Assembly: GCA_025352785.1 (NCBI GenBank)
Contig: JANXSD010000018.1
Span: forward strand, 1-64,000
Direction: 5' to 3'
Length of the DNA stretch: 64,000 nt
Origin: Bacteroidota bacterium
GTDB taxonomy: Bacteria; Bacteroidota; Bacteroidia; AKYH767-A; OLB10
Position 1 is the stretch's first letter; each line of letters starts with the position of its first letter. Positions 20,300 to 33,193 of this stretch are shown here, piece after piece. Both the position numbers and the translations under genes were made by a program. The notes under the pieces were generated by a model. The model ran no database searches, was not told where the DNA came from, and worked only from the letters and a program-made list of their open reading frames with translations.

Positions 20300-23200
20300 T
20301 TATTGAACTGCAATAGGTATTGTTTGTTGCTCTGCCTCATTTTTTTCCAGCATCAAGAAGTAAAAGCCCTTTGGTAAATTGCTTAAATCAAGCTCTTTCA
20401 CATTATTTCCATCAAGTGAATATGCAGATTCTATAACTAATAAATTACCAAGCATATCAACAACTTTTAGTGTATACTTCTCATTTAATGTTGCGCCGAA
20501 AGTAATACTTAACTTACCTGAAGTTGGATTTGGGAATGCGGATAATGCAGTTAAAGCATTGTCATTAGAATTTACATTACTATTATTTTGATTTATTCTA
20601 CAATTTTGCGCAATTGTTATAACAAGTGAATTAACAATACTAGATCCGCAAGCATTATTCGCTTTTACAGTTAACGTTGCTGATGAAGATGTTGATGTTG
20701 TATATTTTACAGTGACACTAATTCCTGTTGATGTACTAACAAAACTAGCTCCACCGGTAATTGCCCATGTATAGGATGTTGCTCCTGTAACTGAACCAAT
20801 AGAATATGTTACGGCAGTTTGACTTTTACATACCGACGACAATCCAGAAATTACGTCTGGTTGTGATGTAGCCGCTATAACTGTTAACGATGATGTTGCA
20901 CTTGATCCACAAGCATTATTTGCTTTTACAGTTATATTTCCAGAACCTAAGAAACTATTTCCATAGGAAACTTTAATTGAGGTGCCATAATTATAAGTGA
21001 TTGTCGCTCCAGCAGGAACCGTCCAAGTGTATGAAGTAGCTCCGGAAATAGAAGAGATTGAATAAGTGACACTAGATTTTTTACAAACATTCGTTGTCGA
21101 TCCAGCGATTGCGCCAGGATTACTTGGTTTTGATTGAACTAATAACGAAGCAGTGAGACTATTTCCACATGCGTTGGTAGCGAAAACAGAAACATTTCCA
21201 GAAATAAATCCAGAAGGGAATGATATAAATACTTCATATTCATTTTGAGAATTGGGGCCTGTAAGAATTAACGGATTCCCTGAATGACCAAGTCCATCAG
21301 TTATGGTACTTCCAAATGGAGCCGACCAAGTATAAGATGTAGCCCCGATAACTTGATTTATCTCATATTCATAATTACTACCGCATACTCCAGACAAACG
21401 ATTATCATCTCCATCACCACTAAATATTGGTTTCGTTGGCACTGATCCCGTAAGAAGTACTACTGCCGTTGCCGTTCCAGTACATCCATTTTTATCAGAA
21501 ATAATTACTGAATAAGATCCTGAAGAAATCCCCGTAATAGTTGCAGAAGTTCCACCTCCGGGAGACCATAAATAATTGTATGCGGGCACTCCCCCTGAAG
21601 GAATAACTGTTGCGCTTCCAGATGCGAGACATCCTGAAGCTGTGGTGGAGGCAATTCCAGTTACTGCAGTTGGAATTGTGATAACTGCAGCAGCATAAGC
21701 GGTACAACCATTCACATCAGTAACGAGATAATTATATGTTCCTCCTATTAGATTTAATAAGGATGCATTACCATAATTATAAGGAGAAGTTCCACCAGCT
21801 GCTTGCAATGAAACTGTACCCAATTGATTATTACAAATCGGTTGAGTCGCATTTGCTGTTAATGATAAAAGTGATGGCTCTACTAAAGTTCCACTAACAT
21901 AATTAGTAGTATAATTAGCTGAAGGGATAAATTGCAAATTCGATGCAACAATAGTATACGTACCTCCAGATGGTATTCCATTAACGATTTGATTTTGTGT
22001 ATTCATTACTACATAATTCGGTCCTGAAGAAATAACGTTTGAAGCATTATCGTCATAACGATATCCTGAAATAGTAGAAGTAAAAGTTGGCAAACTATTA
22101 CATGCTTGATTTTTGCTATCGGCTTTAATAGTTAATTCAGCAGGAAGTATTGTTAGTATACCGAGATCGTAACTAACATCAAAATTATTTGATAAGAAAG
22201 CACCTGGCACAATATAATGTGAGCCTACTTTATAACCTGTAATTAAATTTATAGGTTTGAAAACATAAAGAGTATCACCTGCAGGAGCATTAACATCATT
22301 CTCATCGAGCACGACTGCAACATCTGCTTCGGTACTTGAACCTGCAGTACTATTTACAATTGGCGACCCACTTGCGATTACACGTTGATTCACAACAGCA
22401 GTTCCACTTGCGATTACACGTTGACTAGCAATAACACGTTGGTTAGCGAGAGGAATAGAACTTGTTAAAGTAACATTTGCGGAATCTACTTGATAATTGA
22501 AAACTGCTTCTGGTGAAAGATCAATTAATCGAGTTGTATCGAACACGACACTACTTGCAATTACTCTTTGACTAGCGATCACACGTTGACTAGCAATAGC
22601 TCGTTGACTTGTTAGGAAACTAAGATTTATTAAATCAATACTTGCAATTACTCTTTGATTAATTTGAATTTTATCATCCACAAAAACTACTGCATCTGAC
22701 ATATCCGAAGTGTGAATACTTTTCACTCCATTTAAGAAGGCACTTTGTTCACTTGGATCAATATATGAATTATCATAATTGTAATTAAATCCTAATGCAA
22801 GTCCATTTATTTCATCCCCATAAACGAGTGTAGTATCATGTGCTGTAATTTTCAATAACATTTTTTCAATTGCAAGTTGACTATTATTGAATGAATAATG
22901 ATACAGTTCTAACAAACCAACATCAAATGAAGTAACTGCTGGTTTAATAAAATAAATACCAACATTACTAGTGCTTGTAGCAGAAGTTGTATAAAGAATA
23001 TTATCTAATCCTAAGTCAGTGAGCGTAAGATTTGTTGAATCTAATGGTTGTCCATCAACTGTTACCTTAGCTGTGAAGAGTGGTAATTTCTCGCCGAATT
23101 TTTTTGCTTTATTATCTGCAGTAATGACAATATTTTTCTTTATTGGAGAATAGAAATACAACGAATCAGAATAACCACCATCGGTACCTAAAGGAGTAAT

Positions 23201-26200
23201 AGATGGATTATAAATTTGAATTGGAGGATTACCAAAAAATGTAGGAACAGTAGCTGATAATTGATTGGAATTTAGAATTGTTGTTACTAATGGTACTCCT
23301 CTAAAAATAATTTGCGATTGTGATGTTAAATAATTTCCATCGATTGTTACAACAAAAGTTACTTGACCGGGGATCACACTTGCATTAGGCAAACCGATGC
23401 TCAATAAATCAGGAGTTGGTGCAGCGAATGTTCGTAATGCGGCATCAGCATCCGCAAGACCGTAACCAGTTTCAAAATCAAACCCTGGAGAATTCATATC
23501 TACTCCTGAATTTTGCATTATCGTTTTTACTTCCGTAGGAGTTATTACTTGATTATAGAATTTTTTCTTTCCTTCCACTAACAATGCAGCGATACCTGCA
23601 GCATGTGGAGCAGCGCAAGAAGTTCCAAAGAAATTCGGGAATGCATCAGACTCAATGTTTAAATTTCCGCCAAATGAAACAGTAGTATTTACTCCATCTG
23701 GTGCGATGATATCTGGCTTATTTCGTGTTACTCCTCCTACAGGTGATCCACCAATGGAAGAAAATGTTTCAAGGAGTGGAGGAGTTACACCGAAGGCTGG
23801 AGTTCGTGTGTAACGTGCTGCGCCAACAGCGATAGCACCATTTGCATTAGCTTGACCAACAATGGTAGATGTACCAGTATTGTATTCTGAAATTATTCCT
23901 TCACCACGGAAGATAATATATTTAAAATTCACGTTCGATGTTCCTGCTGCACGAGTAATTAAAAGACTTGCATTTTGAGGTGTTGATCCTCCAACAGTAA
24001 AAGGTAAAACTTCAAGTGGATCACCACCAATATTATTTCTATTAAATCCAAATAATGTTATTCCATTATCGGCAGTCAGATAAATATCTAAATCATTATT
24101 TGTACCTGTTTGAATTTGTCCGTTAGAATAAATTGAATCTTGCCATTGAAGAACAATTGTATAATTTCCTGGAGCCAATGTTAAGCTCTGATATACGTCA
24201 CCAGCACCATTAAAATTATGAGCAGATCCAACTAAACCATTTGGAGTTGTTGTTGGATTGAAAACTCCAGCGTACGATTTATTTCCATAATTACCGGCTG
24301 CGGAGAAGTAAGACACTCCTTGACTAGCTACTTGATTAACAACTTGAGCAACTAATCCATCTTGAAAAAATGGTTCCGTAATAAATGTAACATCATCAAC
24401 AATAATAGTACAAGTGTCTTGTTGCAATTGCAAAATTCCTTGTGCAAAATCTCCAGCGCTAATAAATCCAGTTCTGAAAGCCAATTTTGCTTTTGGAGCA
24501 ACGTCATGCAGAATTTGCAACATTGCTCTTCCTTCATCACTACGACGACCAAATGGAAATTCTTTTAAAACATGAACAGGATCAGGATTTACTGTGTTGC
24601 CTATTCCTGGAAGGTCATCGTTGAGAACATCTGTTTGTGCAGGATCACCTAATAATGTATTATAACTATCTGATAAAACTCCAATCTTTACACCACGACC
24701 TTGAACATTATACCCATTGCGTGCAATGTCTGCTCGAGAGGCAATATCACCACCCGAACTTGAAACTCCACTATTAGATACGGGAGGAAAAAGAGGGCGA
24801 ACATAATCAATTAAAGTTGGAAGACTATCTAGTTTTTTTAAATTCACAACGGGATAAAGTCCAGATATAAATAAAGTATTCGGACCATTATTAATTAAGT
24901 TGGTGATACCATAAGGAGTTGTTTGAAGCAAGCTTAAAAGATTTGCATATTGACCAGCGCGCGCGATCACTTCAACTAAAACACTATCACTACTTAATTG
25001 ATAAATATTATCAAGCGTATCACTTACTGATGGATTGAAATTAAAATAAAGTGATGTTAATTCAGAACCAATTAATGAATTTGTTTTACCATCAACTGGT
25101 GGTGGATAGTAAGGGAAAATACAAGGCCCTTGTGATACTAATGCAAAATCTGAATTGGAACAACCATTGGTAGGATCAGTTACCGTTAATGTAAATGCTC
25201 CAAGAGCATTAACGATAATTGAATTAGTATTTGCACCAGAAACAATATTTCCACCATTACTTTGTGTCCAACTAAAACTAACACCACTAGTTGATGAAGT
25301 GCCTATTAAAGTAGGAGTTAAAATTGCACAACTTAATAATTTATCAGCTCCAGCATTTACATTTGGCACTACATTATTTAAAGTAACGAAAGCAGTATCA
25401 GTAGCACTACATCCATTAGAAGTTGTTGTTACTTTCAGCACATACCCACCGGCAACATTTGCATTAATGGAGGATATATTTGTTGCTGAGGTAATATTTC
25501 CTCCGTTGAGGGTTGTCCAGTTATAAGTTACGCCAGAAGTTGTAGATGAACCATTAAGTTGAGCAGTTGTTGATGCACATGTTATTTGTTTATCAGCACC
25601 AGCATTTGCATTTGGCACTATATTATTTAATGTTACGAAAGCTGTATCGGTAGCAAAACAACTACCAGTAGCAGTTGTAACTTTGAGTACATAGCCACCC
25701 GTAGCATTTGCAGAAATTGTAGCTGTATTTGATGCGGAAGAAATATTTCCTCCATTAATGGTAGTCCAGCTATATGTTACACCAGAAGTTGTTGATGAAC
25801 CTGCAAGTTGAACAGATGATGTAGAACAGGTAATTTGTTTATCAATTCCTGCATTTGCATTTGGTGTTGTGCAAGCAACTGCCAAAGGACAATAAACAAT
25901 TGTTACTCCACTTTGGATATTAATTTGTGTTGAACTCCAAAGTGCACCAGTGATATCACTATTTCCTGCACCTGATCCAATACTTATTCCTGCATTTGGA
26001 GTCCATACAGTACCGAGCCATTTCGAATGACTTCCACCTGAAGAACCATTTACGATAACGAATGAATAAGCTCCGTTAGAACAAGTAGAACCAATGCCAT
26101 GCGTTTCTGTATAAATTCGTGAGGCATTACCTCCATTCAATAAACTCACACTTGATTTACCAAGATCAATATCACCATGAACAAATATTTGAATATTTCC

Positions 26201-26959
26201 AGTGCTGGTATTTTGGAAATTAAAAATGAAATTATTTCCACTCCCCGAATTTTTTATTGATTTGAAAACATAAACACCAGGACCATTAAATGTAATTGTT
26301 TTATTTCCTGAAAGTGTCATGTCTCTAAAAATCCCAGGAGAAATAGATTGTGTTGATGTAATATTTGTTGATGCATAAGCAGCGAATGAAGTTGTAGCTG
26401 GAGCGGAAGGAAGAATTGGTAAACTTGGAGCAGCAATAAAATTTCCTAATCCAGGAATTGGTCCAGAGTATGTTGTTCCCGCAGGGTGAGTAACTTTTTT
26501 TGTTACTTGTCCGCCACCAACAATAATATTTCCGTTTACATCTAAGTTATCACCTAATGAAGCACCTGTTCCAACAGAAAGAATTGTTCCAGAAGTGGCA
26601 TTCGTATTTGCCGCAGTAATTTTTCCAGCAATGGAATTCGAGTTGCTTAAGATGATAGATCCTCCACTACTAATTCCGCCAGTAATATTTGCGTTACCCG
26701 TAGTTTTTATTAAAAAACTACTTCCGATCGTTCCTCCTTGAACAGAAGTAGAAGAACCCATTTGAACAAAACTATTCGAAGATGAACTAAATCCTCCGTA
26801 AAGTACATAGTTACTAATTGGGGTTAGTTGCCCGAATGAAATAATCGGTGATAAAACGATAGTAAAAAGAAAAATTGCACGAATAAAAACTTTCTTAGCA
26901 TTCTTCTGTTTCAACGTTAATCTCTTTGCCGACATTGGATAAGTTAGATTTTTTTTCAT
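20300..26959 (-). CDS. Giant T9SS type A secreted protein: N-terminal beta-rich domain, PKD-like repeats, S8 subtilase domain, MBG-like domains, SprB-like repeats
   Basis: 2219 aa. GVYVFKSIKNSGSGNNFIFNFQNTSTGNIQIFVHGDIDLGKSS domain; subtilase motifs GVKIGVLSDSYN, FSAAGNYGN and FFGTSCAAPHAAGIAALL; MBG-like IVITADNKAKKFGEKLPLFTA; C-terminal AFPNPTSGKLSITF...LDLSNLPKGFYFLMLE. Confidence 0.92.
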   Translation of the reverse strand: MKKNLTYPMSAKRLTLKQKNAKKVFIRAIFLFTIVLSPIISFGQLTPISNYVLYGGFSSSSNSFVQMGSSTSVQGGTIGSSFLIKTTGNANITGGISSGGSIILSNSNSIAGKITAANTNATSGTILSVGTGASLGDNLDVNGNIIVGGGQVTKKVTHPAGTTYSGPIPGLGNFIAAPSLPILPSAPATTSFAAYASTNITSTQSISPGIFRDMTLSGNKTITFNGPGVYVFKSIKNSGSGNNFIFNFQNTSTGNIQIFVHGDIDLGKSSVSLLNGGNASRIYTETHGIGSTCSNGAYSFVIVNGSSGGSHSKWLGTVWTPNAGISIGSGAGNSDITGALWSSTQINIQSGVTIVYCPLAVACTTPNANAGIDKQITCSTSSVQLAGSSTTSGVTYSWTTINGGNISSASNTATISANATGGYVLKVTTATGSCFATDTAFVTLNNIVPNANAGADKQITCASTTAQLNGSSTTSGVTYNWTTLNGGNITSATNISSINANVAGGYVLKVTTTSNGCSATDTAFVTLNNVVPNVNAGADKLLSCAILTPTLIGTSSTSGVSFSWTQSNGGNIVSGANTNSIIVNALGAFTLTVTDPTNGCSNSDFALVSQGPCIFPYYPPPVDGKTNSLIGSELTSLYFNFNPSVSDTLDNIYQLSSDSVLVEVIARAGQYANLLSLLQTTPYGITNLINNGPNTLFISGLYPVVNLKKLDSLPTLIDYVRPLFPPVSNSGVSSSGGDIASRADIARNGYNVQGRGVKIGVLSDSYNTLLGDPAQTDVLNDDLPGIGNTVNPDPVHVLKEFPFGRRSDEGRAMLQILHDVAPKAKLAFRTGFISAGDFAQGILQLQQDTCTIIVDDVTFITEPFFQDGLVAQVVNQVASQGVSYFSAAGNYGNKSYAGVFNPTTTPNGLVGSAHNFNGAGDVYQSLTLAPGNYTIVLQWQDSIYSNGQIQTGTNNDLDIYLTADNGITLFGFNRNNIGGDPLEVLPFTVGGSTPQNASLLITRAAGTSNVNFKYIIFRGEGIISEYNTGTSTIVGQANANGAIAVGAARYTRTPAFGVTPPLLETFSSIGGSPVGGVTRNKPDIIAPDGVNTTVSFGGNLNIESDAFPNFFGTSCAAPHAAGIAALLVEGKKKFYNQVITPTEVKTIMQNSGVDMNSPGFDFETGYGLADADAALRTFAAPTPDLLSIGLPNASVIPGQVTFVVTIDGNYLTSQSQIIFRGVPLVTTILNSNQLSATVPTFFGNPPIQIYNPSITPLGTDGGYSDSLYFYSPIKKNIVITADNKAKKFGEKLPLFTAKVTVDGQPLDSTNLTLTDLGLDNILYTTSATSTSNVGIYFIKPAVTSFDVGLLELYHYSFNNSQLAIEKMLLKITAHDTTLVYGDEINGLALGFNYNYDNSYIDPSEQSAFLNGVKSIHTSDMSDAVVFVDDKIQINQRVIASIDLINLSFLTSQRAIASQRVIASQRVIASSVVFDTTRLIDLSPEAVFNYQVDSANVTLTSSIPLANQRVIASQRVIASGTAVVNQRVIASGSPIVNSTAGSSTEADVAVVLDENDVNAPAGDTLYVFKPINLITGYKVGSHYIVPGAFLSNNFDVSYDLGILTILPAELTIKADSKNQACNSLPTFTSTISGYRYDDNASNVISSGPNYVVMNTQNQIVNGIPSGGTYTIVASNLQFIPSANYTTNYVSGTLVEPSLLSLTANATQPICNNQLGTVSLQAAGGTSPYNYGNASLLNLIGGTYNYLVTDVNGCTAYAAAVITIPTAVTGIASTTASGCLASGSATVIPSGGVPAYNYLWSPGGGTSATITGISSGSYSVIISDKNGCTGTATAVVLLTGSVPTKPIFSGDGDDNRLSGVCGSNYEYEINQVIGATSYTWSAPFGSTITDGLGHSGNPLILTGPNSQNEYEVFISFPSGFISGNVSVFATNACGNSLTASLLVQSKPSNPGAIAGSTTNVCKKSSVTYSISSISGATSYTWTVPAGATITYNYGTSIKVSYGNSFLGSGNITVKANNACGSSATSSLTVIAATSQPDVISGLSSVCKSQTAVTYSIGSVTGATSYTWAITGGASFVSTSTGISVTVKYTTSTSSSATLTVKANNACGSSIVNSLVITIAQNCRINQNNSNVNSNDNALTALSAFPNPTSGKLSITFGATLNEKYTLKVVDMLGNLLVIESAYSLDGNNVKELDLSNLPKGFYFLMLEKNEAEQQTIPIAVQ
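22371..22660 (-). repeat. Seven copies of a (N/S)QR(V/A)IAS heptapeptide-coding repeat inside the subtilase ORF
   Basis: Protein: INQRVIAS..TSQRAIASQRVIASQRVIASS..ANQRVIASQRVIASG..VNQRVIASG. DNA: repeated cttgcgattacacgttga and variants. Confidence 0.95.
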
Positions 26960-29218: not shown

Positions 29219-32200
29219 TTAATTGGTGAAATCAAAACTCATTATTGAATTATCAAATAAAACAGGTAATTTACTCCACGTTTCAATAGCATTACGGTTA
29301 TGTATTACGATATAATACGAGCTTCCAATTACAGAACTTGGATATTGAATTTGTGCAATACCATCCGTATGTAATACTACTGTTGAAGATGCAACTATTA
29401 CCGTTGGATTTATTACATCATGCAATTCAACGGTTATTGAATCAGAAGCTGTTTGATCGCTAGATATTCCCAAAGAAAATAAGGTAGGTTGCATAGTTCC
29501 ACTTCCTGTATACATTCCTTGAAGAAACGCTTTAAGATTTAACGTTACATTGCATGTACCATTAGTTGCGATTATATAATTTGCCATAGCGGTACATCCA
29601 TTTTGATCAGTAGCAATTACTGAATAAACACCAGCACCCAAATTATTTAAATCTTCCGTCAATGTTCCATTGATGATATGGATATCATAACCCATATAGG
29701 CATGATTTGCGCATATATAATGTAATAAGGATGGATGTGTGAAGTTAGGTGTAAAAAAAACTGTTCCATTATCATTTGGCGCACCTGTTTGTCCGCTTAC
29801 AACAATATTATTAGAATTACCCCCTATATTTTCCGTTGAAATATGCCATGGATGGCCGCTGCTAAAAACATTAAAAGTATAGGGAATATTTCGTGTCAGG
29901 GTGAGCTCTTTCGATTCAACACCATCGATATAAAATGAGGATGGGTTTCCTAATTGATAATATGGTCCGTTAGGTGTCTTGTCGCCAATCATAACGCCAA
30001 ACACTGATCCATTAAGTGTATTAAAAGTATCCCAAACAAAATTATAAGGTGCTAAACCAGAAGCAGCAGAAAGATCAATTGCACCAGTAGCACTATTACA
30101 ATTTGTATTTGTTACTGTCGCTGACAATACAATTGTAGAAGTAGTTGAATTTACGATATACTGCGCAGTAGCTGAACAGCCATTCATATCTTTCACAAAA
30201 ACAGTATACGTTCCTGCATGTAGATTGCTAAGATCTTCGCTTAACATTCCATTAACTATATTTATATTGTTTCCCATGTATTGATGATTTGCACAAACAT
30301 ATCGAAGCAAGTTTGGATGCGCAGCATTAGGAGTAAAAAAGACAGTGCCATTTTCACTAGGCGCACCAACTTGTGCATTTGTTACGATGTTGCTTGTATT
30401 TCCTCCAATGAAATCTGTAGAAATATGCCATGGGTGACTTGGACTTAAAATGTTAAAAGTGTAATTAATATTTCGAATAAGTGAAATAGTTTTTGCTTCA
30501 ACTCCATCAATGTAAAAACACGAAGTACTACCGAGACCAAAATAAGGATTAGATGCAGTTTTAACTCCTGCAATAATACCAAAAGTGGGACCATTAGTAT
30601 TTATAGTATCCCATGAAATAGTATATGGTGCAACCCCACCACTTACTGTTAAGTCAATAGCACCTGTTGATGAACTACAAATAGCATTGGTGATACTTGC
30701 ATTTAATGTTACGGGCGAAGGCAATTCAATTACTGTATACTGAGCTGATGTTGAACAACCATTAGCATCCGCAACAATAACAGTATATTTTCCTGCTTTC
30801 AAATTTGTTACATCTTCTGTTGCAAATCCATTAGTGATATTTACTTTATACCCCATGAACTGATGAAATTGGCAAGCATAATAAAGTAAATTAGGAGTTA
30901 CTGACGATGGTTTAAAAGTTACAGTTCCATTTTGAGTGGGAGCTCCTGATTGTCCATTAGTAACAAGAAATGTTGCATTGCCACCAATGTTATCTGTTGA
31001 AATATGAAATGGGTGAGAAGGAGTTAACACACTAAATGAATAAGTAATTCCACGTGTCAAAAACAATTCCTTTGCTTCTACACCGTCGAGAATAAATCCA
31101 CTGGTACTACCTAGACCAAAGAGTGGATTACTGGCAGTCTTTATCCCTGCTGTGACGCCAAACAATGCTCCGTTAATTGTATTGATTGTATCCCAAAGAA
31201 TTGTGTATGGCGCAGTACCACCAGTTACAGTAATATTTATTGAACCATTTTTTGCATTAGGACATGAGACGTTAGAAATTACTGCATTGCTAATGGTAGG
31301 AGCGCTATTCACAACACCAATTGTAATAACATTTGAAGCTATTACATTTGCAGTAACGCAAGATTGATTTGAAGTAAGTGTGCAAGAAATTTGATCTCCA
31401 ACAATTAATCCTGTAAGAGTAGGAGTTGGAGTATTAGTACTGATGTTACTACCATTTTTTTTCCATTGATAATTGGGTGTTGATCCTCCGTTTGTAATTG
31501 TTGAGGTATACGTTGCATTACCACTTGAACAAAATGCTGATGGTCCTGAAATGGAAATTGTAGGGGTAACAGATACCGAACAAATTGAAAGATTATCGAT
31601 AGCAAAGCTTGGACGACTTCCTATCCCACTAACATCACGTTGCACCCATCGTAACTGAACTATTGGTTGATTATTACAAGCAGCGGGAAGTGTAAACACT
31701 TTTGTTAATGAATTTTGTGGTATAGTAATGGCGGATATTTGTGTGGTAGTATTATTTTGATAGATGCCACTTGCTATTCCAGATACGGAGGCAAAAACTC
31801 CGGAAGTTCCAATGCGATATTGCAGATCCACTTGATTGATATGTGTATTTGTTGAAGCATCATAAGGATTACGAATTGTCATTACATCAAAATTCATTGT
31901 AACGGTAAAAAATCCCGTGGTACTTATTGCTAAACATAATGTTGCATCCGACGAACCCGAAGAAAGAATTCCAATCTTTCCATTATAATTTTGGATGCCA
32001 CCAGTAGTACTTGCTGCTGTTGCAGATGCAATTAATGAAAGATCAGAACTTGGAGGTGGAGTAATCGTTCTAAAAGAAGTAGAAGACCCGCCAGTGGAGA
32101 GATTCCATCCTTGAAATCCTACAGGATAAGTTGTAGAAATAGAAGTGAGAGAATTAAAATTTTGAATATAAGGTAATGATTGTGCTGCAGGATTTGTTTG

Positions 32201-32278
32201 CGCCTTGAGTTCGATTTGACCAAGTAAACTGAATAATAGTACTGCGCTAAATGTTACAATTGAGTAAAATATCTTCAT
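29219..32278 (-). CDS. Secreted SprB-repeat protein carrying three cupredoxin-like inserts
   Basis: 1019 aa, signal peptide. Three modules with HP(F/W)HIST(D/E) and LL.Y.C..H.(F/Y)MG motifs, each lodged between aPYtixWdt and nLxAGxYtVxxxDxNGCs halves of SprB repeats. The C-terminal domain ends YYIVIHNRNAIETWSKLPVLFDNSIMSFDFTN. Confidence 0.88.
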   Translation of the reverse strand: MKIFYSIVTFSAVLLFSLLGQIELKAQTNPAAQSLPYIQNFNSLTSISTTYPVGFQGWNLSTGGSSTSFRTITPPPSSDLSLIASATAASTTGGIQNYNGKIGILSSGSSDATLCLAISTTGFFTVTMNFDVMTIRNPYDASTNTHINQVDLQYRIGTSGVFASVSGIASGIYQNNTTTQISAITIPQNSLTKVFTLPAACNNQPIVQLRWVQRDVSGIGSRPSFAIDNLSICSVSVTPTISISGPSAFCSSGNATYTSTITNGGSTPNYQWKKNGSNISTNTPTPTLTGLIVGDQISCTLTSNQSCVTANVIASNVITIGVVNSAPTISNAVISNVSCPNAKNGSINITVTGGTAPYTILWDTINTINGALFGVTAGIKTASNPLFGLGSTSGFILDGVEAKELFLTRGITYSFSVLTPSHPFHISTDNIGGNATFLVTNGQSGAPTQNGTVTFKPSSVTPNLLYYACQFHQFMGYKVNITNGFATEDVTNLKAGKYTVIVADANGCSTSAQYTVIELPSPVTLNASITNAICSSSTGAIDLTVSGGVAPYTISWDTINTNGPTFGIIAGVKTASNPYFGLGSTSCFYIDGVEAKTISLIRNINYTFNILSPSHPWHISTDFIGGNTSNIVTNAQVGAPSENGTVFFTPNAAHPNLLRYVCANHQYMGNNINIVNGMLSEDLSNLHAGTYTVFVKDMNGCSATAQYIVNSTTSTIVLSATVTNTNCNSATGAIDLSAASGLAPYNFVWDTFNTLNGSVFGVMIGDKTPNGPYYQLGNPSSFYIDGVESKELTLTRNIPYTFNVFSSGHPWHISTENIGGNSNNIVVSGQTGAPNDNGTVFFTPNFTHPSLLHYICANHAYMGYDIHIINGTLTEDLNNLGAGVYSVIATDQNGCTAMANYIIATNGTCNVTLNLKAFLQGMYTGSGTMQPTLFSLGISSDQTASDSITVELHDVINPTVIVASSTVVLHTDGIAQIQYPSSVIGSSYYIVIHNRNAIETWSKLPVLFDNSIMSFDFTN

Positions 32279-32443: not shown

Positions 32444-33193
32444 ATGCCTCTTTCGCTAAAATCACAAGCCAAAACCTATTTTAGGTTTTTTGTGATTATC
32501 CTATGTACATGCAATCCTATGACTTTAGTCAGTCAATCTATTTTTCAAGGGAGCTTTCTCATGTCATTTACCTCCTCAAATGTAACGATACAAGATTATC
32601 CATTGCAATGGACTATTCAACCAATTTCCGGAGGAATTAGAATGGCGATGGAAATTGAAGATAATATGCGCATGAAAGGAGTTGATAAACGTGTATTATT
32701 TAATCCGGCAGATAGCACATGGATGATGTTAATGGCCATTGGAAATGTAAAACAAGGAACAAAGATTCATCGTGCAATGATGTATCGTGATTCCACACTT
32801 GATCAAAAGGAAATATTAAAATTTACTAAAATTTCTAGAATTATTTCTAATTTAAAATGTTATAAAACCATCCGAGAAACTGACACCTACATTACAGAAT
32901 ATTGGATTACTATGGAATACACTTTTAATGTGTGCAAGGTTTATAAATTGTTAAGTCATTGTGGAATGATGAGTGAATCAATTCGAAAAGGTGATTGGTT
33001 TAATTGGAAAAACCCGAAAGGAATGATTGTTGAAATAACTACAAAAAATAAATTATCTGGTGACTTCTACACAGTGGCACTATCACAAATAAAATTTAAT
33101 GCTATTAATTTACAATTATTCAATTTAGCTGGATATAAAATTTCAGAAATTCCTGAAGGGCAAAATTGTGGTCCTGTTGTTAAGGAAAAATAA
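32444..33193 (+). CDS. Exported hypothetical protein, possibly DUF4412-like
   Basis: 249 aa with hydrophobic N-terminus. Family assignment is weak. Confidence 0.55.
   Translation: MPLSLKSQAKTYFRFFVIILCTCNPMTLVSQSIFQGSFLMSFTSSNVTIQDYPLQWTIQPISGGIRMAMEIEDNMRMKGVDKRVLFNPADSTWMMLMAIGNVKQGTKIHRAMMYRDSTLDQKEILKFTKISRIISNLKCYKTIRETDTYITEYWITMEYTFNVCKVYKLLSHCGMMSESIRKGDWFNWKNPKGMIVEITTKNKLSGDFYTVALSQIKFNAINLQLFNLAGYKISEIPEGQNCGPVVKEK

Follow-up and report, generated by a model that had tools for sequence, protein, structure and literature searches.

What is a set of copper-type ligand motifs doing inside the repeats of a large bacterial surface protein? The question is raised by an ORF of 1019 aa with an ATG start (29219-32278, minus strand) in the window, the 64,000-nucleotide stretch of DNA analysed here. 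The ORF is a secreted-protein candidate, whose hydrophobic N-terminus resembles a signal peptide by eye and is followed by a region of about 200 aa without family, an Ig-like stretch, three units of about 193 aa, and a C-terminal domain. Each unit is an SprB repeat split by a module of 117-118 aa. Every module contains an HPxHIST motif (residues 422, 615 and 809) and a CxxHxxM motif (469, 662 and 856), and identity to module 1 is 62% for module 2 and 53% for module 3. The reading developed below, to which we assign a probability of about 0.7, is that of a secreted surface protein displaying three copper-binding cupredoxin domains nested in SprB repeats, with the array arising by duplication of the unit.

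Along the minus strand, the first SprB repeat opens with a front half at 31178-31285, is interrupted by module 1 (residues 365-482; 30833-31186), and resumes with a rear half beginning NGFATEDVTNLKAGKYTVIVADANGC (30707-30832). The same order is found in the second unit (front half, 30596-30700; module 2, residues 559-675, 30254-30604; rear half, 30128-30253) and in the third (front half, 30026-30124; module 3, residues 752-869, 29672-30025; rear half, 29546-29671). The Pfam SprB model, PF13573, exceeds its cut-off of 28 bits in all three front halves (47.8, 41.3, and 29.1 bits). Since this model covers the front half of the repeat only, a full 75-position SprB model was built from six uninterrupted repeats in other proteins of the same genome. 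Front pieces match the full model up to position 40, and rear pieces begin at positions 41-45 (positions 41-74, 45-70, and 41-73, with 25.5, 19.4, and 23.4 bits). The modules alone score about 0 bits against it, and the joined front and rear pieces reach 54, 43, and 45 bits. Judged by these alignments, each repeat is confirmed to be split at one point, between model positions 40 and 41. The motif positions and the model scores thus agree with the preliminary description, which had proposed three units, each consisting of an SprB start, an inserted module, and an SprB end.

The nesting is borne out in relatives as well, where joined pieces score 31-66 bits in ten units of G024, G006, and G038 and in single copies of G019, G033, and G040. 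Three modules per protein are present in the window ORF, G006, and G024, and four in G038, while G027 carries a tandem pair of modules inside a single SprB repeat, an arrangement noted at L008:4659-5360. Applied to more distant relatives, the full-model test detected no SprB score in the flanks. Nesting in SprB is therefore seen only in the host's order and does not characterise the module family as a whole. Because the structure predicted for the whole SprB and module unit was poor (pLDDT 44), the evidence for nesting comes from sequence. The first units of different genomes are nearest each other with moderate support, which fits duplication of the entire unit prior to the divergence of these genera. 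The array would have grown, in this manner, through duplication of a composite of SprB and cupredoxin.

The module belongs to PF25489 (“At5g54830-like”), an established but sparsely named family that takes its name from an Arabidopsis protein. The whole protein scores 62.7 bits against this family. Module 1 alone reaches 35.6 bits, above the curated cut-off of 27, while modules 2 and 3 stay under it when scored singly, at 20.2 and 21.4 bits. The preliminary description had held an established non-copper family to be incompatible with its proposal. This objection does not apply cleanly: the family is indeed established, but no attribution of a metal or function to it was found, and a PDB search with its profile leads to copper proteins.

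An AlphaFold2 model of the module, computed for module 1 from a 64-row alignment, is confident (mean pLDDT 96.6, pTM 0.88) and all-beta, with eight beta strands. Its best fold matches in the PDB are rusticyanins (E 1.8e-4 to 4.3e-4, prob 1.00), followed by multicopper oxidases, laccases, and copper nitrite reductase, with only SO1698 intruding in the top 50. The model forms a Greek-key beta-sandwich of the cupredoxin type, albeit with a TM-score of only about 0.5 to the best match and an rmsd near 7 Å to solved cupredoxins. Viral models resemble it much more closely (E as low as 1.9e-11, TM-score 0.85), in line with membership of a single family. With a confident model and copper proteins as the best PDB matches, the cupredoxin fold anticipated earlier is well supported by prediction.

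At the sequence level, a profile search of the PDB reaches the Cys-His-Met loop of copper nitrite reductase (E 0.0038, the best sequence E-value) and weakly matches azurin (2xv0), pseudoazurin, and amicyanin at their Cys-His-Met loops. Other PDB profile searches gave weak or mixed matches only; a direct search of the PDB with the whole protein gave no match, and an NCBIfam scan no relevant one. The Pfam model Copper-bind (PF00127, the plastocyanin/azurin family) has no match in the window protein, where no module passes, and matches 4 of 64 relatives weakly (best E 0.003). The first His is followed by Pro (HP) in the modules as opposed to Asn (HN) in azurin-type proteins of the relatives. Profile comparison with these azurin-type proteins gave no useful match, and comparison with plastocyanin-type proteins of the relatives covered 16 columns only, around Cys-His-Met.

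Four residues, H58, C105, H108, and M111 in module numbering, account for four of the eight invariant columns among 17 bacterial, archaeal, and viral modules. In the AlphaFold2 model, H58 lies just before strand 60-63, C105 ends strand 100-105, and H108 and M111 are in the loop before the last strand, the placement found in cupredoxins. The preliminary description had compared the motifs to type-1 copper ligands of the amicyanin or pseudoazurin kind. The His/Cys/His/Met set is indeed kept, but of the two His residues in HPxH, only the first is a conserved upstream ligand. C-x2-H-x2-M is the spacing of amicyanin, whereas pseudoazurin and plastocyanin use C-x2-H-x4-M.

Whether the ligands are lost together was assessed in 51 copies outside the loci collected by a three-ligand pattern; the CxxHxxM virus-pattern loci were excluded because that pattern selects three ligands. 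All four ligands are present in 47 copies, and the remaining four lack both the first His and at least one of Cys, His, and Met. No copy breaks one side only (Fisher p 4e-6, with related copies not independent and with some collection seeds using HPxH or CxxHxxM strings, which favours intact copies). Among the 107 copies read in the excluded virus loci, 105 have the first His. The joint loss seen in the 51 copies points to a single metal site shared by His, Cys, His, and Met. Sequence comparison thus shows the nesting with its conserved junction, as well as a ligand set that is either intact or lost jointly.

Degenerate copies comprise one Bacteroidota pair (L041 and L043) and separate viral contigs. 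Two bacterial and three viral copies have lost ligands yet keep the fold residues G46, Y49, F51, G78, and P98, and nearly always P59. The loss is thus specific to the ligands, and the pattern is what loss of a metal site within a retained fold would look like. At L041:8373-8726, the module is still inserted in SprB with broken ligands (GFPF...YYNCTNQLNVG), the Cys being kept; at L043:8871-9224, an inserted module with broken ligands (GFPF...YYASGTGTLMG) keeps the Met. The module can therefore persist without metal, which is dispensable for some role of the module. Joint ligand loss also allows a clean comparison of metal-holding and metal-free copies.

Beyond this protein, 11 of 61 near genomes contain a match to the module, as do 10 of 398 genomes of a phylum sample, the host's own included in both counts. 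Further matches occur in a contig of the haloarchaeon Halobellus and in IMG/VR contigs, though a single-protein query against viral contigs gave no match. The Halobellus ORF (L009:4764-10397) encodes 1878 aa, with a 39% identical module near its N-terminus. In three other Bacteroidota, the module ends proteins (L052:5825-7762, L053:5951-7504, and L055:6367-7962) that contain repeats with HPAHIH/HPGHIH motifs, CHRD-like by eye. The module is also present in 41 phage records, most of them from phages of Synechococcus and Prochlorococcus; the annotations include tail fibre, baseplate wedge, and hypothetical proteins. Among the relatives are proteins of the tail fibre and baseplate in cyanophages and a pelagiphage, in addition to “beta-sandwich” proteins of giant viruses.

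The ORF product would act outside the cell. Its last 111 residues or so (29222-29554, minus strand) form a domain with no Pfam family over cut-off that recurs in seven other ORFs of the genome (six of 583-1800 aa and one of 176 aa), and the orthologues end in the same domain. It is possibly a sorting or anchoring signal of an unrecognised kind; searches of Pfam and NCBIfam found no recognised type IX sorting domain in the ORF. The recurrence of this domain, together with the presence of SprA in the genome, makes type IX export plausible. SprB repeats are abundant in the genome (140 matches), but nothing links the ORF product to motility, and the gliding-type scaffold suggested at the outset gains no ground. 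A divergently transcribed 249-aa protein without Pfam match (32444-33193, plus strand) is kept beside orthologues in three relatives (L037, L038, and L039; 44-47% identity). Other neighbours encode an adenylate/guanylate cyclase, an AHSA1 protein, and an acyl-CoA dehydrogenase-like ORF. Elsewhere in the window (20300-26959, minus strand), a 2219-aa protein, subtilase-like by eye, carries short repeats NQRVIASQRVIAS, and a similar protein adjoins the orthologue in two relatives.

Several other explanations deserve weighing. The modules may be structural or ligand-binding beta-sandwiches that serve in adhesion or spacing, as in phage tail fibres, with any metal only stabilising the fold. Relatives in phage tail fibre, baseplate, and giant-virus proteins, where electron transfer has no obvious use, speak for such a role, as do the two bacterial and three viral copies that keep the fold without the ligands. 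A complete His/Cys/His/Met set maintained over such distances, and lost jointly, is nevertheless more than a spacer needs, and we consider this explanation less likely. A little more doubtful is a cell-surface role in scavenging, storing, or detoxifying copper, in which three to four copper ions would be held per protein without an electron relay. Arrays of three sites (window, G006, and G024) or four (G038) would suit this purpose, but type-1 sites are usually tuned for electron transfer and no copper transport or resistance gene is present among the neighbours scanned. The same neighbours hold no redox partner gene either, leaving the earlier suggestions of electron transfer or copper scavenging without backing from gene context.

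Cys, His, His, and Met can hold zinc, so another metal could occupy a cupredoxin fold. This is improbable, as Met and the C-x2-H-x2-M loop are copper-type features found in amicyanin, and the profile's PDB matches at the Cys-His-Met loop are copper proteins. SprB-rich proteins are common in the genome, and chance motifs in a repetitive surface protein might be entertained on that ground, yet their likelihood is negligible: shuffles of the same protein contain 0.005 CxxHxxM on average, against 3 observed, and conservation of the motif extends to archaeal and viral relatives. This reading is refuted by both results.

The copper-binding cupredoxin array remains the preferred reading, and its workings can be outlined. 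The ORF product would be a secreted Bacteroidota surface protein showing three cupredoxin domains, each sitting in the loop between two SprB halves, so that the repeat presents the domain and the chain runs on. Every domain would bind one copper ion at a type-1 site with a short amicyanin-like loop, made up of the first His of HPxH together with Cys, His, and Met. We infer that the modules are occupied by copper, coloured, and redox active, with a capacity for electron transfer. They may function as an electron relay, a copper-binding surface, or a structural module; the most likely use is redox-active copper held at the surface, as a short-range electron relay or a copper-binding patch. A bolder proposal, which we regard as unlikely, is that PF25489-type domains are an overlooked type-1 copper family spanning Bacteroidota surface proteins, a haloarchaeon, and marine phage tails, and that the array borne by SprB passes electrons outside the cell. 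Should copper binding be confirmed, a family that owes its name solely to a plant gene would turn into a copper family, and in the phages of Prochlorococcus and Synechococcus, tail proteins would acquire a metal site open to testing. In addition, the nesting shows that SprB repeats can take in an entire domain at one fixed loop, which offers a natural site for display.

Cupredoxins, SprB repeats, and the PF25489 family are each already known. In the open-licence literature, no link between cupredoxins and SprB or tail fibres was found, nor a description of PF25489 phage members as a copper domain; cupredoxin and baseplate co-occur there in work on coccolith proteins. Two points are new as far as the searched literature shows: that PF25489, phage members included, is read as holding a copper site, and that an entire domain is inserted into SprB repeats at a fixed position. 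The ORF product is thus probably a cupredoxin array in a new architecture. Rusticyanin is its best PDB fold match, but shares only 16-18% identity with the module and has a longer Cys-His-Met loop. Amicyanin, which shares the C-x2-H-x2-M ligand loop, is reached by the profile only weakly (E about 1). The modules match PF25489, for which SprB nesting is another context. The same domain occurs in phage proteins of the tail fibre and baseplate (phrog_677 and phrog_9158; cyanophages and a pelagiphage), with the same four ligands in the aligned IMG/VR copies, but these are virion proteins and the domain is not nested in SprB there. With the SprB-repeat surface proteins of Bacteroidota, the ORF product has in common its three PF13573 repeats over cut-off; the repeats from this genome on which the model was built, with a period of about 75 aa, run without interruption, whereas those of the ORF are interrupted.
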